A DNA stretch of 64,000 bases from Planctomycetota bacterium (GTDB taxonomy: Bacteria > Planctomycetota > Planctomycetia > Gemmatales > Gemmataceae): NCBI GenBank assembly GCA_003671255.1, contig QWPF01000003.1, forward strand, positions 1 to 64,000, read 5' to 3'. The position numbers were made by a program, and so were the translations under genes. This document shows positions 22,832-51,925 of the stretch, piece by piece. Numbering within the stretch: position 1 is the first letter of the stretch; every line of letters begins with the position of its first letter. Under the pieces are notes generated by a model. It worked only from the letters and a program-made list of their open reading frames with translations. It had not been told where the DNA came from and made no database searches.

Positions 22832-22929
22832 AAAATTTACAGGTGTATTTTATTGGTTTTTTCCTAGAATCTTGGATGTGGCTTTTGTAGGCATCCTTGT
22901 TAACCTTATTTTGATCTTTCGGAGGCGTG

Positions 22930-24144
22930 ATGGCTAAGGAAATTTTCAATCGTAATAAACCCCATGTTAATGTTGGAACCATTGGGCATATTGACCATGG
23001 CAAAACCACAACAACAGCGGCTATCGTCGCTCGTCGAGCTCACATCAACAAAATCCTGAAATTCAAGGATTACAAGGAAATCGCAAAAGGCGGTACCGTC
23101 CGCGATGATCTCAAAACCGTCACCATCGCTGTTGCACATGTTGAATACGAAACCAACAAACGCCACTATGCACACATCGATTGCCCAGGGCATGCTGACT
23201 ATATCAAAAACATGATTACTGGCGCAGCACAAATGGATGGTGCCATCCTTGTGGTTGCTGCAAACGATGGACCAATGCCACAAACGCGCGAACATATTTT
23301 GCTCGCCCGCCAAGTGGGTGTGCCTAAAGTGGTTGTTTACCTTAACAAAGTTGATCTCGTTGATGATCCAGAACTTCTTGAACTTGTGGAAATGGAAATT
23401 CGCGAACTTCTTAACAAGTATGAATTCCCAGGCGACGAAGTGCCAATCATTCGTGGAAGCTCGCTTCCTGTTATGCTTTCAGGTGGCAAAGATGATGCTG
23501 CTGGCAAATGCCTCGACGACCTTATGGATGCCTTGGATACCTATATCCCTGACCCTATTCGTGAAGAAGACAAGCCTTTCTTGATGAGCATCGAAGATGT
23601 GTTCTCAATCAAAGGTCGTGGTACTGTTGCTACTGGCCGTATCGAACGCGGTGCTTGTAAAGTTGGTGACGAAGTTGAACTTCTTGGGCTTCGCAAGGAT
23701 CCAGTGAAAACCGTTATCACAGGTATCGAAATGTTCCAGAAGACCCTCGACAGAGGCCAAGCTGGTGACAATGTTGGTGTTTTGCTTCGTGGTATTGACC
23801 GCGATGGCGTTGAACGAGGTCAGGTTCTTGCAAAGCCAGGCAGTATCAACATTCATACCAAATTCGAATGTTCAATCTATGTGCTTAGCAAAGAGGAAGG
23901 TGGTCGTCACACCGCATTCTTCAGCGGCTATCGTCCCCAATTCTATTTCCGTACCACCGATGTTACAGGATCTGTAACTTTGTCTGCTGGGGTTGAAATG
24001 TGTATGCCCGGTGACAATGTTAAAAGTTTAGTGGTTCAACTTTTGCCAGATTCTCCAATTGCTATGGAAGAAGGCCTCCGCTTTGCAATTCGAGAAGGTG
24101 GCAGAACTGTTGGATCAGGCGTGGTAACCAAGATTCTTGAGTAA
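22930..24144 (+). CDS. tuf: Elongation factor Tu
   Basis: EF-Tu delivers aminoacyl-tRNA to the ribosome. The 404-residue product has all GTPase motifs: GHIDHGKT (19-26), DCPGH (84-88) and NKVDL. Domains 2 and 3 are normal ([31 protein letters not shown]). Switch I is divergent: the usual ARGITINTSHVEYE is [13 protein letters not shown] with a two-residue longer approach ([11 protein letters not shown]). The Mg2+/GTP threonine is kept as Thr65. The ATG at 22930 is chosen because GGAGG ends 4 bp upstream; the GTG at 22927 is too close to that site. It follows four tRNA genes. Confidence 0.97.
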
Positions 24145-24430: not shown

Positions 24431-24441
24431 TCATGGATAAT

Positions 24442-24514
24442 ACGGGTGTAGCTCAACTGGCAGAGCACCGGTCTCCAAAACCGGGGGTTGAAGGTTCGAC
24501 TCCCTCCGCCCGTG
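24442..24514 (+). tRNA. tRNA-Trp (CCA)
   Basis: A 73-nt cloverleaf. Acceptor ACGGGTG pairs with CGCCCGT, the anticodon arm is CCGGT-CTCCAAA-ACCGG and the discriminator is G, as expected for tRNA-Trp. It lies between rpmG and secE, a placement conserved in many bacteria. Confidence 0.95.
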
Positions 24515-24624
24515 TTCTTAATAATATTATCGGGAAAAAAAATATTTTTCTCATATGATCTTCTTTGGCGAACAATTGCTAACTCGCCTGGTTTTTTCAA
24601 ACTGTCGGTATTCGTAGGACAAAA

Positions 24625-25905
24625 ATGGCATCGACCATTAAAAATAAGCCCGAATCAACCTTAGCTTCTGTAAACGCAAATCCTGCGATTTATAGTCTGG
24701 GATTCCTCGTTCTTTTTGTAGCAATTGCTTTCGCTTTGCTTCAATTACTACCTTGGGCTTGGTTTAATTTGTTACATCTTCCCTCTACCTCTACTTCAAA
24801 TATCACACTTGCTTTAGCAGGCTTTGGACTTGGTATTTTTGCTCTTATCATCATTGGTAAAAACAAAATATTCCACGAACTTCCTGGAATCAAAGCAGGG
24901 ATCTTCATCGCATTCGTTCTTGCTCTTGCCAACCTTTATTTGGATTCTTGGTGGGGTAAATTTACCGAAAGCCTTGTATTTGATAAAAGAGCTTTCCCCG
25001 AATCTTTTGGAATGGGCTTGGCTGGTGCGGGCGCCGCTCTTATCGCAATTGGTTCTTTCATCTTTTTCTTTCGTCCTGCAAACTTGAAGCTTTTTAATCG
25101 TATTGAAGAACAAGGTTGGTTCTCCCGCGATTCATTCAAACAAAATCAAGGTGCGAAAATTCGAAGAGGTACCATCATGTGCCTTCTGATTCTTTTCGGT
25201 ACAGGCATCATGGTTCTTGTTCGTAACGATAGCCTTGCAAGAAATGGATCGAACTGGCAGATTGAAATCCCCTACACCGGCAAAGTGAAAATTAATCCCG
25301 ATAAAATTGGCGATGCGCTTGCTATGCTTCAAACTGCGGGTTACAAACCTGAAGAACAGTTATTGGTTTCTCGGGAAGCTTTTCGCGCAGCAAATTCAGC
25401 TATCGACCCGAACCTTTTTATTAAGATTGGTTTATTGACTGGCGATTCTAAATACAAAATCGGGGAAATTGTAACTAAAGATTCTTATCAAGATGAATCT
25501 CGTGAATTAACTAAAAACGATCGTAAACCTGCTGAATCTGTTCCTTTAAAAGTTGCAGAAGGAACGGTGATTTATCATTCCTTTATTCTGCTCCCAGGCG
25601 TTCAGTTTTCAGGCCCGATTCTTTTGATCATTCTCGCTTTATGGGTCTCGTGGAAAGTTGTCAATATTCCGGTGTTTGCCGATTTCTTGATCGCAACTGA
25701 AGCCGAGATGAATAAAGTTTCTTGGACAACTAAAAAGAAGCTGTTTCATGATACCATAGTGGTATTAACTACTTTGGTTTTGATGTCTGTCTTTTTGTTT
25801 GCAATGGATCAGTTTTGGAGAATTTTCCTGACAAAAGCGGGGGTGCTTCGTTTCGGTCAGGATAATGTTCAGAAAAATACAAGTGTTGACCTTAAAAAAT
25901 GGTAA
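24625..25905 (+). CDS. secE: SecE with long multi-helix N-terminal extension
   Basis: The last ~75 residues are a normal SecE: amphipathic FADFLIATEAEMNKVSWTTK (351-370) followed by one membrane helix (TIVVLTTLVLMSVFLFAM). SecE clamps SecY in the Sec translocon. Ordinary bacterial SecE has 60-130 residues; this one has 426. The extension has about five hydrophobic segments (roughly 23-47, 61-79, 89-107, 128-149, 182-199), a non-cytoplasmic-type loop of ~115 residues (200-315) and a sixth segment (319-345) just before SecE. AGGA precedes the ATG, and nusG follows by 21 bp, so this is the genuine secE locus. Confidence 0.88.
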   Translation: MASTIKNKPESTLASVNANPAIYSLGFLVLFVAIAFALLQLLPWAWFNLLHLPSTSTSNITLALAGFGLGIFALIIIGKNKIFHELPGIKAGIFIAFVLALANLYLDSWWGKFTESLVFDKRAFPESFGMGLAGAGAALIAIGSFIFFFRPANLKLFNRIEEQGWFSRDSFKQNQGAKIRRGTIMCLLILFGTGIMVLVRNDSLARNGSNWQIEIPYTGKVKINPDKIGDALAMLQTAGYKPEEQLLVSREAFRAANSAIDPNLFIKIGLLTGDSKYKIGEIVTKDSYQDESRELTKNDRKPAESVPLKVAEGTVIYHSFILLPGVQFSGPILLIILALWVSWKVVNIPVFADFLIATEAEMNKVSWTTKKKLFHDTIVVLTTLVLMSVFLFAMDQFWRIFLTKAGVLRFGQDNVQKNTSVDLKKW

Positions 25906-25926: not shown

Positions 25927-26568
25927 ATGGTATCGGATAATTTAGAACAACCTGTTGACCCTTCAGTCGATACTGAAAGTCATCCCGTTCAAAGTTCTAC
26001 ACCTGAAATTAGTGCAAAGCCTAGCTTGGGCAAAAGCTGGTATGTTGTCAAAGTTCAGAGTGGTAGAGAAGAATCCATCAAAGAGGCTCTCGAAAAAAGA
26101 GTCAAAATTGATGGTTTGGAGGAATTCTTTGGCCAAATTCATATTCCGATTGAAAAAGTAACGGAAATGCGCAGAGGCAAAAGAGTTTCCAGAGAAAGAA
26201 AACTTTTTCCAGGCTACCTCATGGTCGAAGTAGAATTTAACGACCCGATCTTGTACCTGTTCCGCGAAACCACTGGAGTGGGTGATTTTGTCGGTGGCAC
26301 CGCCACTCACAAACTTCCCACTCCTATGAGCGAGCGGGAAATCGAACGAATGTTGCGCGTTAAAGGCGACAATGTTGCGCCCACTGTTGTTAGCAGGCCC
26401 GCATTTGATGCAGGCGATCGAATCAAGGTAAAGGATGGAACCTTTGCGGGCATGGATGGCGAAGTCAAAGAAATCATGGAAGCATTGGGCCGTGTAAAAG
26501 TGGAACTCACTATTTTTGGAAGGCCAGTTCCCGTTGAATTGGAATACTGGCAAGTTGAAATCGTTTAA
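25927..26568 (+). CDS. nusG: Transcription factor NusG
   Basis: NusG binds RNA polymerase, suppresses pausing and links transcription to Rho or to the ribosome. The 213-residue product has an N-terminal tail of about 36 residues rich in S, P and E before the NGN domain (SWYVVKVQSGREESIKEALE). The NGN motif FPGYLMVEVEF is present. The C-terminal KOW domain is FDAGDRIKVKDGTFAGMDGE. E. coli NusG has 181 residues. The site CGGAG precedes the start. It lies in the standard order secE-nusG-rplK. Confidence 0.96.
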   Translation: MVSDNLEQPVDPSVDTESHPVQSSTPEISAKPSLGKSWYVVKVQSGREESIKEALEKRVKIDGLEEFFGQIHIPIEKVTEMRRGKRVSRERKLFPGYLMVEVEFNDPILYLFRETTGVGDFVGGTATHKLPTPMSEREIERMLRVKGDNVAPTVVSRPAFDAGDRIKVKDGTFAGMDGEVKEIMEALGRVKVELTIFGRPVPVELEYWQVEIV

Positions 26569-33555: not shown

Positions 33556-36500
33556 ATGCTATCTATGAGCAATGCTAATAATGGTGATAGTTCTTATGAT
33601 CGTATTAATGACTATGGTGCTGTTCGCATCAGTCTTGCTAGCCCACATGACATTCGTAATTGGTCATTTGGCGAAGTAAAGAAACCTGAAACCATCAATT
33701 ATCGAACTTATCGACCTGAAAAAGATGGTCTCTTTTGCGAAAGAATTTTCGGACCTGAAAAAGATTGGGAATGCTCCTGCGGTAAATATCGCGGCATGAA
33801 ATATAAAGGCATGATTTGTGACCGTTGTGGTGTTAAAGTCGCCCATAGTCGCGTTCGTAGAAAACGCATGGGCCACATCGAACTTGCAGCCCCTGTTGTT
33901 CATATTTGGTTCTTCAAGGCGATGCCCTCCCGCCTTGGTACCTTGCTTGATATGAAAACCACAAGCTTGGAAAAGATTATTTACTTCCAAGATTATGTCG
34001 TTACAGACCCTGCTGAAACTCCACTTAAGAAAAGCCAACTTCTCACCGAAGATGAATATCGTAAGTATCGTGAAAATTATGGTGATGGTTTCAAAGCTGA
34101 AATGGGCGCTGAAGCTATCCGAAAACTTCTTACCGGGCTGAACCTTGTCGATCTTTCCATCGATTTAAGAAAACGCCTTGATACCGAAGAAAAGAAAGAC
34201 AAACCCAGCAAACAAAAACTGAAAGACCTTGTTAAAAGGCTTAAAGTTGTTGAAGCTATCCGCGATTCCGGATTGGGTGGCCCACAAAACAAACCCGAAT
34301 GGATGGTCCTTGAGTGCGTGCCCGTGATTCCACCAGACCTTCGTCCTTTGGTTTTGCTAGACAGCGGTAACTTCGCAACTTCAGATCTTAATGATCTTTA
34401 TCGCCGTATCATCAACCGTAATAATCGTCTTAAAAAATTGGTCGACCTCAATGCACCTGAAGTTATCATTCGTAATGAAAAACGCATGCTGCAGCAGTCG
34501 GTTGATTCCCTGTTTGATAACAGTCGTTGCAAGCGACCCGTACTCGGATCCAGCAACAGACCGTTGAAATCCCTTACCGACATGATCAAGGGCAAGCAAG
34601 GTCGATTCCGCGAAAACCTTTTGGGCAAGCGCGTCGATTACTCCGCCCGTTCGGTTATCGTTGTTGGCCCAGAACTCAAATTGCACCAGTGTGGTCTTCC
34701 CAAAAAGATTGCTTTGGAATTGTTCCAACCCTTCATTATTCGAAGGCTTAAAGAATTAGGCCACGCAGACACCATCAAGTCTGCCAAGAAAATGCTTGAA
34801 AGAAAAGACGACCATGTGTGGGATATTCTTGAAGAAGTCATCAAGAATCACCCTGTCCTTTTGAATCGTGCACCTACCCTGCATCGTATGGGCATCCAAG
34901 CTTTCGAACCTGTCCTTATTGAAGGTAATGCCATTCGCATTCATCCTTTGGTTTGCAAAGGTTTTAATGCCGACTTCGATGGCGATCAGATGGCAGTGCA
35001 TCTTCCTCTTTCAATCGAAGCACAAGTTGAAGCAAGCGTGCTGATGATGTCTACCAATAACATTTTCAGCCCTGCAAATGGCCAGCCTATTATCAGTCCT
35101 TCCCAGGATATTGTTATGGGTTGCTATTACTTGACTGCAACTCGCGGAGAAATGGGCGAAAGCGGAGAAGCAGGCGAAGGCAAGACTTTTGCCAGCGTCA
35201 AAGAAGTTTTCACCGCCTTTGATTTGCGCAAAATTGGCATTCATGCCCGGATTCATGTGCGACTCCCCATCCACAAAAAATTCATCTCCGAAATTCGTTT
35301 CGAAAAAGATAAAACCAAGGTTGAAGAACTTCCAAGAAAATCCAATGGCCTTGTTACAAGCACCGTTGGACGCGTTGTCTTCAACAACATCCTTGATGAT
35401 CGCATGGCCTTTTACGACCTTGCCCTCTCTACCAAAAATCTTTCCCGCATTATTGCTGAGTGCTACCAAGCCCTTGGCAGACGCGCTACCATCGAACTTC
35501 TTGATCGTATGAAAGAAATCGGTTTCCGCGAGTCCACCAGATCAGGCCTTTCCTTTGCCACCGACGATCTGCGCACTCCTGATACCAAGCAAAAAATCCT
35601 TAACGAAGCCGAAAAGGATGTCGAGAAAATTCGCAAAAATTACGACAAAGGCAATATTACTGAACGCGAACGCTACAATAATGTCATCGATCTTTGGACC
35701 AATGCAAGTAAAGCCATCACCAAGCAGATGATGGAAGATCTTCGCAACGACACCCGTCCTGATGAGACTGGCAAAAAACGCCCTTATCTTAATCCTATTT
35801 TCTTGATGGCTCACTCCGGTGCACGCGGTGGTATCGAACAGATCCGCCAACTTGCTGGTATGCGCGGTCTAATGGCAAAACCTAACGGTACCATTATCGA
35901 AACTCCTATTAAGGCGAACTTCAAGGACGGTCTTTCCGTTCTTGAATACTTCAGTTCAACTCACGGTGCTCGTAAAGGCTTGGCGGATACCGCACTGAAA
36001 ACTGCAGATTCAGGTTACCTCACCAGGAAACTTGCTGATGTGGCTCAAAATGTGGTTATCACAATGCATGATTGTGCCACCTCTTCGGGTATTGATAAAT
36101 CAGCTATTCTTAAGGGTGAAGAAACCGAACGCTCACTTGCTGAAACGATTCGTGGTAGGGTTAGCAGGGTAACCATTGTTAACCCTGTTACTGGTGAAAC
36201 TATCGTTGAAGAAAACGATATGATTTCTACCGAAGCTGCTCAAAAACTTGAACTTTATGGCATCGACAAGATTACTGTTCGAAGCCCCATGACTTGTCTG
36301 GCACCTCTTGGTATCTGCAGACTTTGCTACGGCATGGATCTTTCAACTGGTTCGCTAGTTGAAGAAGGCATGGCTGTAGGTATTATTGCTGCTCAATCAA
36401 TTGGGGAACCCGGAACTCAGCTTACCATGCGTACTTTCCACATTGGTGGCGTGGTGAAACGCGAAGTTGGTGAGAGCGAACACAAGGCTAAAAAGGCCGG

Positions 36501-37923
36501 TATCGTCAGCTACGAACGCCTCGACATCGTTATCAACGACAAGAAGGAAAAGATTGCTCTTACCCGTAATGGTGAAATTAAAATTCTTGGACCCAAAGAT
36601 AAAGTCCTTGAAACCTATGCTGTTCCTAACGGATCGATTCTCTTTGTTGAAAAAGGACAGACTGTTGCTCCCGGTCAAATGCTTTGCAAATGGGATCCAC
36701 ATATTATTCCAATTATTGCTGACCGTGGCGGAAAGATTTCTTTCGACGATATCGTCGAAGGCGAGACTTTCAAAAAGGAAGGTGATGAAGTCACCGGTGC
36801 AGAGCGCTATGTAATTATGGAACATAAGGGTGAACTTCATCCACAAGTGTTCATTAATGATGAGCGTGGCCAAAAACTCATGTTCTATTACATGCCTGAA
36901 AAAGCCGTCCTCGAAGTTCGTGAAGGCCAAATGATTTCTGCGGGCGCCCTTATTGCTAAAACTCCCCGCGAAGTTTCTGGTACACAGGATATTACTGGTG
37001 GTCTTCCCCGCGTTACAGAAATCTTTGAAGCTAGACGCCCTCGCGATCCTGCAGTTATGGCGGAAGTGGCTGGGGTCATCGAAATTGGCGATAAGCGTCG
37101 TGGCAAACGAACTATCTGGGTTATTCCAGTTGATGATCACGGCAAGCCTTCCGGTACTAAGATCGAACATCTTGTTCCTCCAGGCAAACATCTTCGAGTT
37201 CATGCTGGCGATAGGGTTCGTGAAGGCGATGCCTTGGTTCAAGGGCCTCTTGCTCCTCATGATATTCTTCGCATCAGCGGTACCGAAGCTGCTCAAGCTT
37301 ACTTGGTTCGTGAAATTCAAGCTGTTTATCGAACGCAGCGTGTTGATATCGATGATAAACATATTGAAATCATCGTTTCGCAAATGCTTCGCAAAGTCAA
37401 AGTTGAAAAAATGGGCGATACCGGATTACTACCCGGCTCAGTCATCGATCGTTTTGCTTTCCAGCATGTCAACCAACGACTTCGTGAATGTGTTAAGATC
37501 AAAAAAGTTGGTGACTCCAAGTTTGAAGAAGGCAAGATCATTGCAAAGGATGTCTTTGAAGAAGAACGAGCACTGCTCGAAGCTGATGACAAAGTGCTTC
37601 CTACCTTCACCAAACCCGAACCCGCTACTTGCAGCACACAGCTCCTTGGTATTACCAAGGCCTCGGTTCAGTCTGATAGCTTTATCTCGGCTGCGTCCTT
37701 CCAAGAAACCACCAAGGTTCTTACTGAAGCAGCTTTAGCAGGTAAGGTTGATTATCTGGTTGGGCTTAAAGAAAATGTTATTCTTGGTCACTTAGTTCCT
37801 GCTGGAACTGGTTTTAGTGATCATCAGAATTCCGAAGTTAAGGTTAATTCTCCTTATGTTGATGAAAGCTCAGGAAACATCCTAGGCAAATCAGACGACA
37901 AAGAAGCACTCTTAACCAACTAG
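33556..37923 (+). CDS. rpoC: RNA polymerase beta' subunit
   Basis: This is the largest core subunit, up to 1455 residues. The N-terminal zinc finger is [20 protein letters not shown]. The catalytic Mg-binding motif NADFDGDQM is at residues 471-479. The second zinc site uses CATSSG near residue 845 and [13 protein letters not shown] near 915. Bridge-helix and trigger-loop segments are present ([16 protein letters not shown]). Two starts are possible: 33556, only 2 bp after GGAGG, or 33565, 11 bp after it. E. coli RpoC has 1407 residues. Confidence 0.98.
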
Positions 37924-50418: not shown

Positions 50419-50557
50419 TATTAAGATTTTGCTTTCCTGAGAATTTTTGTTGTTTCTTTCAAGCGGTTTAAGATTACCATTCTGGGATTAGATTTAGGGT
50501 AATCCGGATTGTTCTCAATTGGCAATCTGCGGTATACCCAACTGCAGGAGCCATAGT

Positions 50558-51925
50558 ATGGGCAAGTTAAGTGCAATTTTAGCTATTCCGGAACTTCGGA
50601 ATAAAATTCTTATTACTCTTTTGTTTCTTGCCGTCTACAGGGTGGGTTACTCCATCCCTCTTCCTTTCGTTGATCAGAGTTTGATGAACCGCAATGTGGG
50701 TCAGGGCGGCCCTTTGGGTGATATCCTTGGATATGTTTCGTTATTTAGCGGTGGCGATTTAAGTAATGCAACCCTTTTCGGTTTGGGCATTATGCCCTAC
50801 ATTTCCGCATCGATCATTTTCCAACTTTTAGGTGCTGTTTATCCTCCCCTGGAAAAACTCCAAAAAGAGGGTGAATCTGGGCGCAAGAAAATTAACAACT
50901 ACACTCGCTGGGCTACTGTTGTCATCTGTTTCTTCCAAGCCTTTATGTATGTTCAATTTATCATGCAACCCTCTTCCAGAGGTGGGCAGGGGTTCGCTTT
51001 GACAGAGCCCATTGATTATAATGTCGGTTATTATTGGATCACCATGGTTCTTATGATGACCACGGGAACTATGTTCCTCATGTGGATGGGCGAGCAAATT
51101 GATGAATACGGCATTGGTAACGGTATTAGTTTAATCATCATGGCGGGTATCGTTGCTAGAATACCTGCTGCTACTGCTTCCTTACTTTTCGAAAACGGCA
51201 AGTTCAAAGAATCGATTTTTACTCTTGGTGGCGGGTCCAGCCAAGATATTAGTTTTGAAAAACTGGTTGTTCTAATGCTTCTTTTCGTTATGGTAGTGGT
51301 TGCAGTAATTGCAATTACCAAAGCGCAAAGGAGAATACCAACGCAATCTGCGAAACATGTACGGGGTCGAAAAGTATACTGCGGTACCAGGCAGTTTCTA
51401 CCTTTAAAAGTGAATCAGGCTGGGGTTATGCCTGTGATTTTCGCAAGTAGTTTGCTAGTTCTGCCTTATTTTATATTTAACTTTATTTCGAGTGCAACGG
51501 AATGGAGCTGGGCCCTTGCGTTGAAAGATGTTTTTGAAAGACAAGGTTGGGCGTATACTGTACTTTTTGTTGTAATGATTTACATATTTTGTTATTTTTG
51601 GACAGCAATTATCTTTAATCCAAAAGATGTTGCTAATAATTTGAAAGACTTTGGTAGCTTTATTCCTGGTTACAGGCCAGGTAAAAGAACTTCAGAATAT
51701 CTCGAAAAAGTGATGATGCGAATTACTTATGTTGGTGCAGCTTTTCTCGCTATTATTGCAGTTACTCCTACGTTGATAACAAGCACGATGGATGTCAGGC
51801 AGGAAGTTGCTAGTTTTTATGGTGGCACTGGCCTTCTTATCGTGGTCAGCGTTGCATTGGATTTAGTTCAAAAAATAAATAGTCATCTTGTAATGCGAAA
51901 CTACCCCGGCCTAACAGAAGATTAA
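50558..51925 (+). CDS. secY: Protein translocase subunit SecY
   Basis: SecY forms the protein-conducting channel. The 455-residue protein starts at 50558 (MGKLSAILAIPELRNKILIT), set by CAGGAG seven bases upstream. Ten membrane segments are expected. Signature stretches are LFGLGIMPYISASIIFQLLG (TM2 and plug), GIGNGISLIIMAGI and, in the cytoplasmic loop, RIPTQSAKHVRGRKVYCGTR. The C-terminus is RNYPGLTED. Its partner SecE in this organism is greatly extended. Confidence 0.97.
   Translation: MGKLSAILAIPELRNKILITLLFLAVYRVGYSIPLPFVDQSLMNRNVGQGGPLGDILGYVSLFSGGDLSNATLFGLGIMPYISASIIFQLLGAVYPPLEKLQKEGESGRKKINNYTRWATVVICFFQAFMYVQFIMQPSSRGGQGFALTEPIDYNVGYYWITMVLMMTTGTMFLMWMGEQIDEYGIGNGISLIIMAGIVARIPAATASLLFENGKFKESIFTLGGGSSQDISFEKLVVLMLLFVMVVVAVIAITKAQRRIPTQSAKHVRGRKVYCGTRQFLPLKVNQAGVMPVIFASSLLVLPYFIFNFISSATEWSWALALKDVFERQGWAYTVLFVVMIYIFCYFWTAIIFNPKDVANNLKDFGSFIPGYRPGKRTSEYLEKVMMRITYVGAAFLAIIAVTPTLITSTMDVRQEVASFYGGTGLLIVVSVALDLVQKINSHLVMRNYPGLTED

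Follow-up and report, generated by a model that had tools for sequence, protein, structure and literature searches.

SecE, ordinarily a minimal protein, belongs to the best-conserved components of the Sec translocon, in which its final helix is predicted to clamp the two halves of SecY to each other. The secE gene of the planctomycete contig analyzed here (QWPF01000003.1, of which the first 64,000 nucleotides are called the window) encodes a much longer protein, and the question that it raises is what the residues preceding the SecE core are and where they came from. We conclude that the protein is a three-transmembrane (three-TM) SecE with a four-TM module added at its N-terminus and a domain of ~95 residues inserted in a loop. 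The account as a whole, comprising this anatomy, stepwise addition of the parts, and derivation of the inserted domain from rpoC, is in our judgment likely to be correct; that estimate excludes a docking role for the insert, which is graded separately below.

The secE ORF begins with ATG and runs for 426 codons in one continuous frame. It is preceded by tuf (22927–24144) and a tRNA-Trp gene (24441–24515) and is followed directly by nusG (25927–26568), the standard secE-nusG placement recognized in the initial annotation. A search of the genome showed that secE is present in a single copy, with no second SecE. PF00584 matched residues 354–402 alone (4.7e-11; 42.9 bits versus a cut-off of 22.7), and the NCBIfam family TIGR00964 was matched at 39.6 bits (cut-off 27.55), in agreement with the ordinary C-terminal core that had been described. 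Residues 1–345 searched alone matched no Pfam family, and sequence searches of Pfam, NCBIfam, and the PDB with residues 1–345 or with the loops gave nothing significant. A weak LPXTG-anchor match and a PIN-domain PDB match obtained in these searches were set aside as chance. The SecY gene is present at 50519–51925, and SecG, YidC, and SecDF were each found in the same genome. Because all three are present, nothing obvious has been replaced by the additions to SecE, and the extension as a substitute for any of them was rejected. At G000:C110:5844-6455 and G000:C121:15742-17499 of this genome, YidC lies in an 810-codon frame and SecD and SecF, apparently fused, in a 1063-codon frame.

The full-length extension was retained in six congeners at 77–90% identity. 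Values of dN/dS were low in every region, approximately 0.09 in the N-terminal module and 0.04 in the loop, and approximately 0.04–0.1 within the genus, synonymous sites being saturated in some congener pairs. Substitutions fell mainly at third codon positions, and all length differences were in-frame. Judged from this pattern of change, the extension is genuine coding sequence. The true SecE might instead begin internally near residue 315, a start that the initial annotation had already contemplated, with the remainder being an overlapping or mistaken ORF; the product would then have the size of an ordinary SecE. Because the full frame is conserved, with its four N-terminal TM segments found in Gemmatales generally, and because dN/dS is low and changes are biased to third positions, we consider such a start very unlikely indeed.

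Hydropathy analysis identified six hydrophobic segments before that of the core, the number originally reported, but two of these, TM5 and TM6, correspond to TM1 and TM2 of an ordinary three-TM SecE and are not additional. In the AlphaFold2 model, helices spanned residues 20–49, 56–79, 89–121, 126–149, 177–200, 326–347, and 370–405, and the hydrophilic loop between TM5 and TM6 (~201–325) was folded. A conserved cytoplasmic motif, K..QG....R..T, lies around the start of TM5. A phmmer search matched residues 313–397 to E. coli SecE, and in the alignment other Planctomycetia SecE proteins had TM5, TM6, and the core but were without TM1–4. Because the short SecE proteins of other orders thus possess these three elements, and because phmmer extended the similarity to the E. 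coli protein, we divide the protein into three parts, in which TM5, TM6, and the core, as aligned, constitute an E. coli-like three-TM SecE (Table 1). The protein resembles the E. coli three-TM SecE (PF00584/TIGR00964) in its core helix and clamp TM, the two TMs preceding them, its place before nusG, and its single copy; it differs in the four extra N-terminal TMs and in the folded ~95-residue domain of the TM5-TM6 loop.

Table 1. Features of secE and rpoC in the window, with the evidence for each
Feature	Coordinates	Strand	Evidence
secE, 426 aa, seven predicted TM helices	24625..25905	+	ORF; Pfam/NCBIfam SecE at residues 354–402; AlphaFold2 pLDDT 79
N-terminal four-TM module, residues 20–149	24682..25071	+	AlphaFold2 helices; profile A6
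TM5, residues 177–200, aligned with TM1 of three-TM SecE	25153..25224	+	Conserved in other Planctomycetia SecE (L026, L027)
Inserted domain, residues 220–313, predicted extracytoplasmic; almost certain RpoC β'-bD7/sLC homologue	25282..25563	+	Profiles, hhalign, Foldseek
TM6, residues 326–347, aligned with TM2 of three-TM SecE	25600..25665	+	phmmer, alignment, AlphaFold2
SecE core, amphipathic cytoplasmic helix and clamp TM, residues 354–402	25684..25830	+	PF00584, 4.7e-11
rpoC, β' subunit, 1455 aa, putative donor gene	33556..37923	+	ORF
Tandem β'-bD7 (sLC) domain of rpoC	37393..37635	+	SecE-loop profile matches; named by position (PMC11515920 Table 2)

Searches of 119 genomes of the class with profile A6 found the four-TM module in most sampled Gemmatales SecE proteins and gave weak, scattered matches alone outside Gemmatales SecE. 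No standalone homologue of the module was found in these 119 genomes; the non-SecE matches had E-values of 7e-4 to 6e-3 and fell in varied ORFs. The initial proposal of a lineage-specific, multi-TM module fused to SecE was therefore upheld, whereas its suggestion of a fused translocon accessory found no freestanding counterpart, and the extension is not planctomycete-wide: the four-TM module belongs to Gemmatales and the loop domain to a subclade of Gemmataceae. What other Planctomycetia SecE proteins do share is TM5, TM6, and the core, and not TM1–4 beyond Gemmatales.

The length of the TM5-TM6 loop between anchors was bimodal, ~53–121 residues in SecE proteins without the insert and at least 164 (up to 353) in those with it. 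A profile of the loop searched against 41 whole genomes matched SecE and, in nearly every genome, one more place, rpoC (6.2e-8 for the rpoC of the same genome; best, 3e-12). In 102 Gemmatales genomes the profile again matched SecE and, in nearly all of them, rpoC. In 294 Planctomycetota genomes the listed matches outside the window's SecE were rpoC-sized frames or fragments (own rpoC, E = 2.7e-9), and none among the matches listed resembled another SecE. In the reciprocal direction, an HMM made from RpoC segments alone scored 16 of 16 loops at 22–60 bits; the highest score among 9,600 shuffled loops was 9.8 bits, and SecE without the loop scored below 0. Alignment of the loop and RpoC families by hhalign gave a probability of 99.2% (E = 1.7e-19) over 82 collinear columns, with repeat 1 (~220–260 in this SecE), repeat 2 (~266–299), and the tail (300–313) in the same order in both. 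Even the single comparison of this loop with the RpoC of the same genome by BLASTP gave E = 1e-5. The loop, which had been described as long and extracytoplasmic, thus retains that likely location and is not featureless; it holds a domain homologous to part of RNA polymerase β'.

The structural comparisons agreed. With the full AlphaFold2 model, the best 50 Foldseek matches listed were all β'/RNA-polymerase entries, and with the loop modeled from SecE rows only, the best 50 listed were likewise all RNA polymerase. The best matches of the loop model, 9n9q_G and 9n9p_D, had a probability of 1.00 and a TM-score of 0.60 (2.7 Å, 100 columns). Given the small size of the domain, Foldseek E-values were no better than modest, the lowest being 1.6e-3. 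On predicted models, the insert therefore has the same fold as the RpoC β'-bD7 domain, which is the small left claw (sLC), CATH 3.30.60.280 (PMC11515920). The homologous RpoC segment is flanked by HIEIIVxQML and LLGITKA; its name was taken from this position and from Table 2 of PMC11515920, not from a CATH search, and by position it is bD7 (sLC) and not bD5 (BEAN) or bD6 (HABAS). In planctomycete RpoC, bD7/sLC consists of two tandem repeats, as in the β' subunits of 8dkc and 9n9p (PDB); most other bacterial β' matches covered one repeat. SecE contains the sLC alone, without the universal catalytic domains of RNA polymerase, and the window also contains an intact rpoC. The SecE and RpoC domains are alike in sequence, two-repeat order, and predicted fold. 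They differ in that the SecE copy is part of a membrane protein and presumably lies outside the cytoplasm. Its cysteines have been lost, and in most carriers it is without the GDTxLLPG turn of repeat 1.

In a maximum-likelihood tree inferred from SecE and NusG with the loop columns excluded, the insert required one change; 26 of the 27 carriers formed one clade (96/92), and the 27th (G018) was compatible with that clade at a placement support of 43/36. In a tree of 87 columns with weak inner branching, the SecE inserts formed one clade (98/95) among the RpoC segments. An independent second gain in G018, considered for its very RpoC-like repeat 1, is not favored, because a single change suffices on the best loop-free tree and the insert joins the SecE clade, though the support for this is weak. 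The domain is present in rpoC of nearly all Planctomycetia genomes searched and in SecE of the Gemmataceae subclade alone, which makes RpoC to SecE the simplest direction. In carriers with both genes on one contig, secE and rpoC are ~12 kb apart on one strand. A single origin of the insert from rpoC is very probable, and rpoC as donor is well supported, as is the direction that we infer.

Two other readings of the likeness were weighed against these data. Convergence on a common β-α-β motif would be helped by the shortness of the motif and by the single-pair similarity of only ~30%; the reciprocity of the profiles, the collinearity of repeats and tail, and the failure of any other protein in the searched genomes, or of any shuffled loop, to score similarly make it very improbable. 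That the two domains are homologous is, in our view, almost certain. The insert might alternatively have come from a source other than planctomycete rpoC, such as a horizontally acquired Bacteroidota-type two-repeat rpoC, since 8dkc and 9n9p also align over two repeats and the SecE branches are long on the short-domain tree. On the same weakly resolved tree, however, the SecE inserts group with planctomycete RpoC, away from the 8dkc/9n9p outgroup, and the donor proposed here lies nearby on the same strand; a foreign source is thus improbable. In the history favored here, the four-TM module would have joined the N-terminus of SecE as the first step, near the base of Gemmatales. Later, and once, in a Gemmataceae subclade, a copy of the rpoC tandem bD7 would have entered the extracytoplasmic TM5-TM6 loop. 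Because secE and rpoC, which is ~12 kb downstream, belong to one ribosomal/RNA-polymerase cluster, ectopic duplication inside the cluster is the simplest putative source.

Placement of the insert on the extracytoplasmic side was deduced because of the topology of the SecE core, the positive segment before TM5, and the near loss of cysteines, of which there was 1 in 2015 residues of SecE loops versus 61 in 3057 of the RpoC segments; such scarcity is as expected outside the cytoplasm. There the insert would fold as a compact β/α cap at the exit side of SecYEG, possibly a permanently attached docking or stabilizing platform for the translocon, and the four-TM module may form a membrane annex beside SecY. 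Nothing that resembles an active site is conserved in the loops, and because conserved polar residues of catalytic type are absent, an enzymatic role is disfavored. The purifying selection described above points to a fold that matters. A docking or stabilizing role is our tentative suggestion. The insert could equally have persisted without a partner, as a non-adaptive passenger in a permissive loop, kept through harmless folding; this would change its role and not its origin. Carrier loops vary from 164 to 353 residues between anchors, diverge faster than the core (31–49% loop identity between genera), and have nearby relatives that live without the insert, all of which a passenger would explain. 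The low dN/dS within the genus and the retention of the insert across approximately nine genera, among which the best tree shows no clear loss, are less easily explained in that way. A passenger is a serious possibility, about as likely as the docking or stabilizing cap, which we propose with modest confidence. It is similarly possible that in one bacterial family a cytoplasmic RNA-polymerase domain was copied into SecE within the cluster, moved across the membrane, and became a translocon domain with a function of its own, and that such insertional domains are still mobile between adjacent genes.

Related events are known: some DST-group bacteria carry a HABAS insertion in NusG, and archaeal uL10 carries BEAN (PMC11515920). 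The SecE insertion is an event of this type, in that a protein whose gene lies near rpoBC contains an RNA-polymerase-type insertional domain; it differs in that the domain is sLC, the recipient is a membrane protein, and the carriers are part of one family. In SecE the domain also seems to have moved across the membrane. Because it is lineage-restricted, the SecE insertion should be more recent. Insertions of this type have been argued to be early and then declining, with an unclear mechanism of spread in which gene neighborhood was suggested as a factor, and SecE was not mentioned (PMC11515920). Our literature search, which covered few subscription papers, found no description of this SecE architecture. 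Here SecE has gained both extra membrane helices and an RNA-polymerase-homologous domain. A candidate donor, empty-site relatives, and carriers are all available, so the spread of insertional domains is directly testable, and any effect on export of this natural extracytoplasmic addition to SecYEG can be assayed.

Several SecE proteins have unusual loops. The strongly diverged long loops of L114, L115, and L118 were matched by the SecE-loop profile at 93% and weakly by RpoC (49.6%), and they are likely descended from the insert. SecE proteins of L119–L121 likewise have long, strongly diverged loops. In G018 (L011, 523–2127), a spacer parts the two RpoC-like repeats, and a hydrophilic C-terminal tail of ~85 residues follows the core. 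The much longer loops of L010, L080, L081, and L122 contain further repeat-like pieces, which suggests additional internal growth of the insert.
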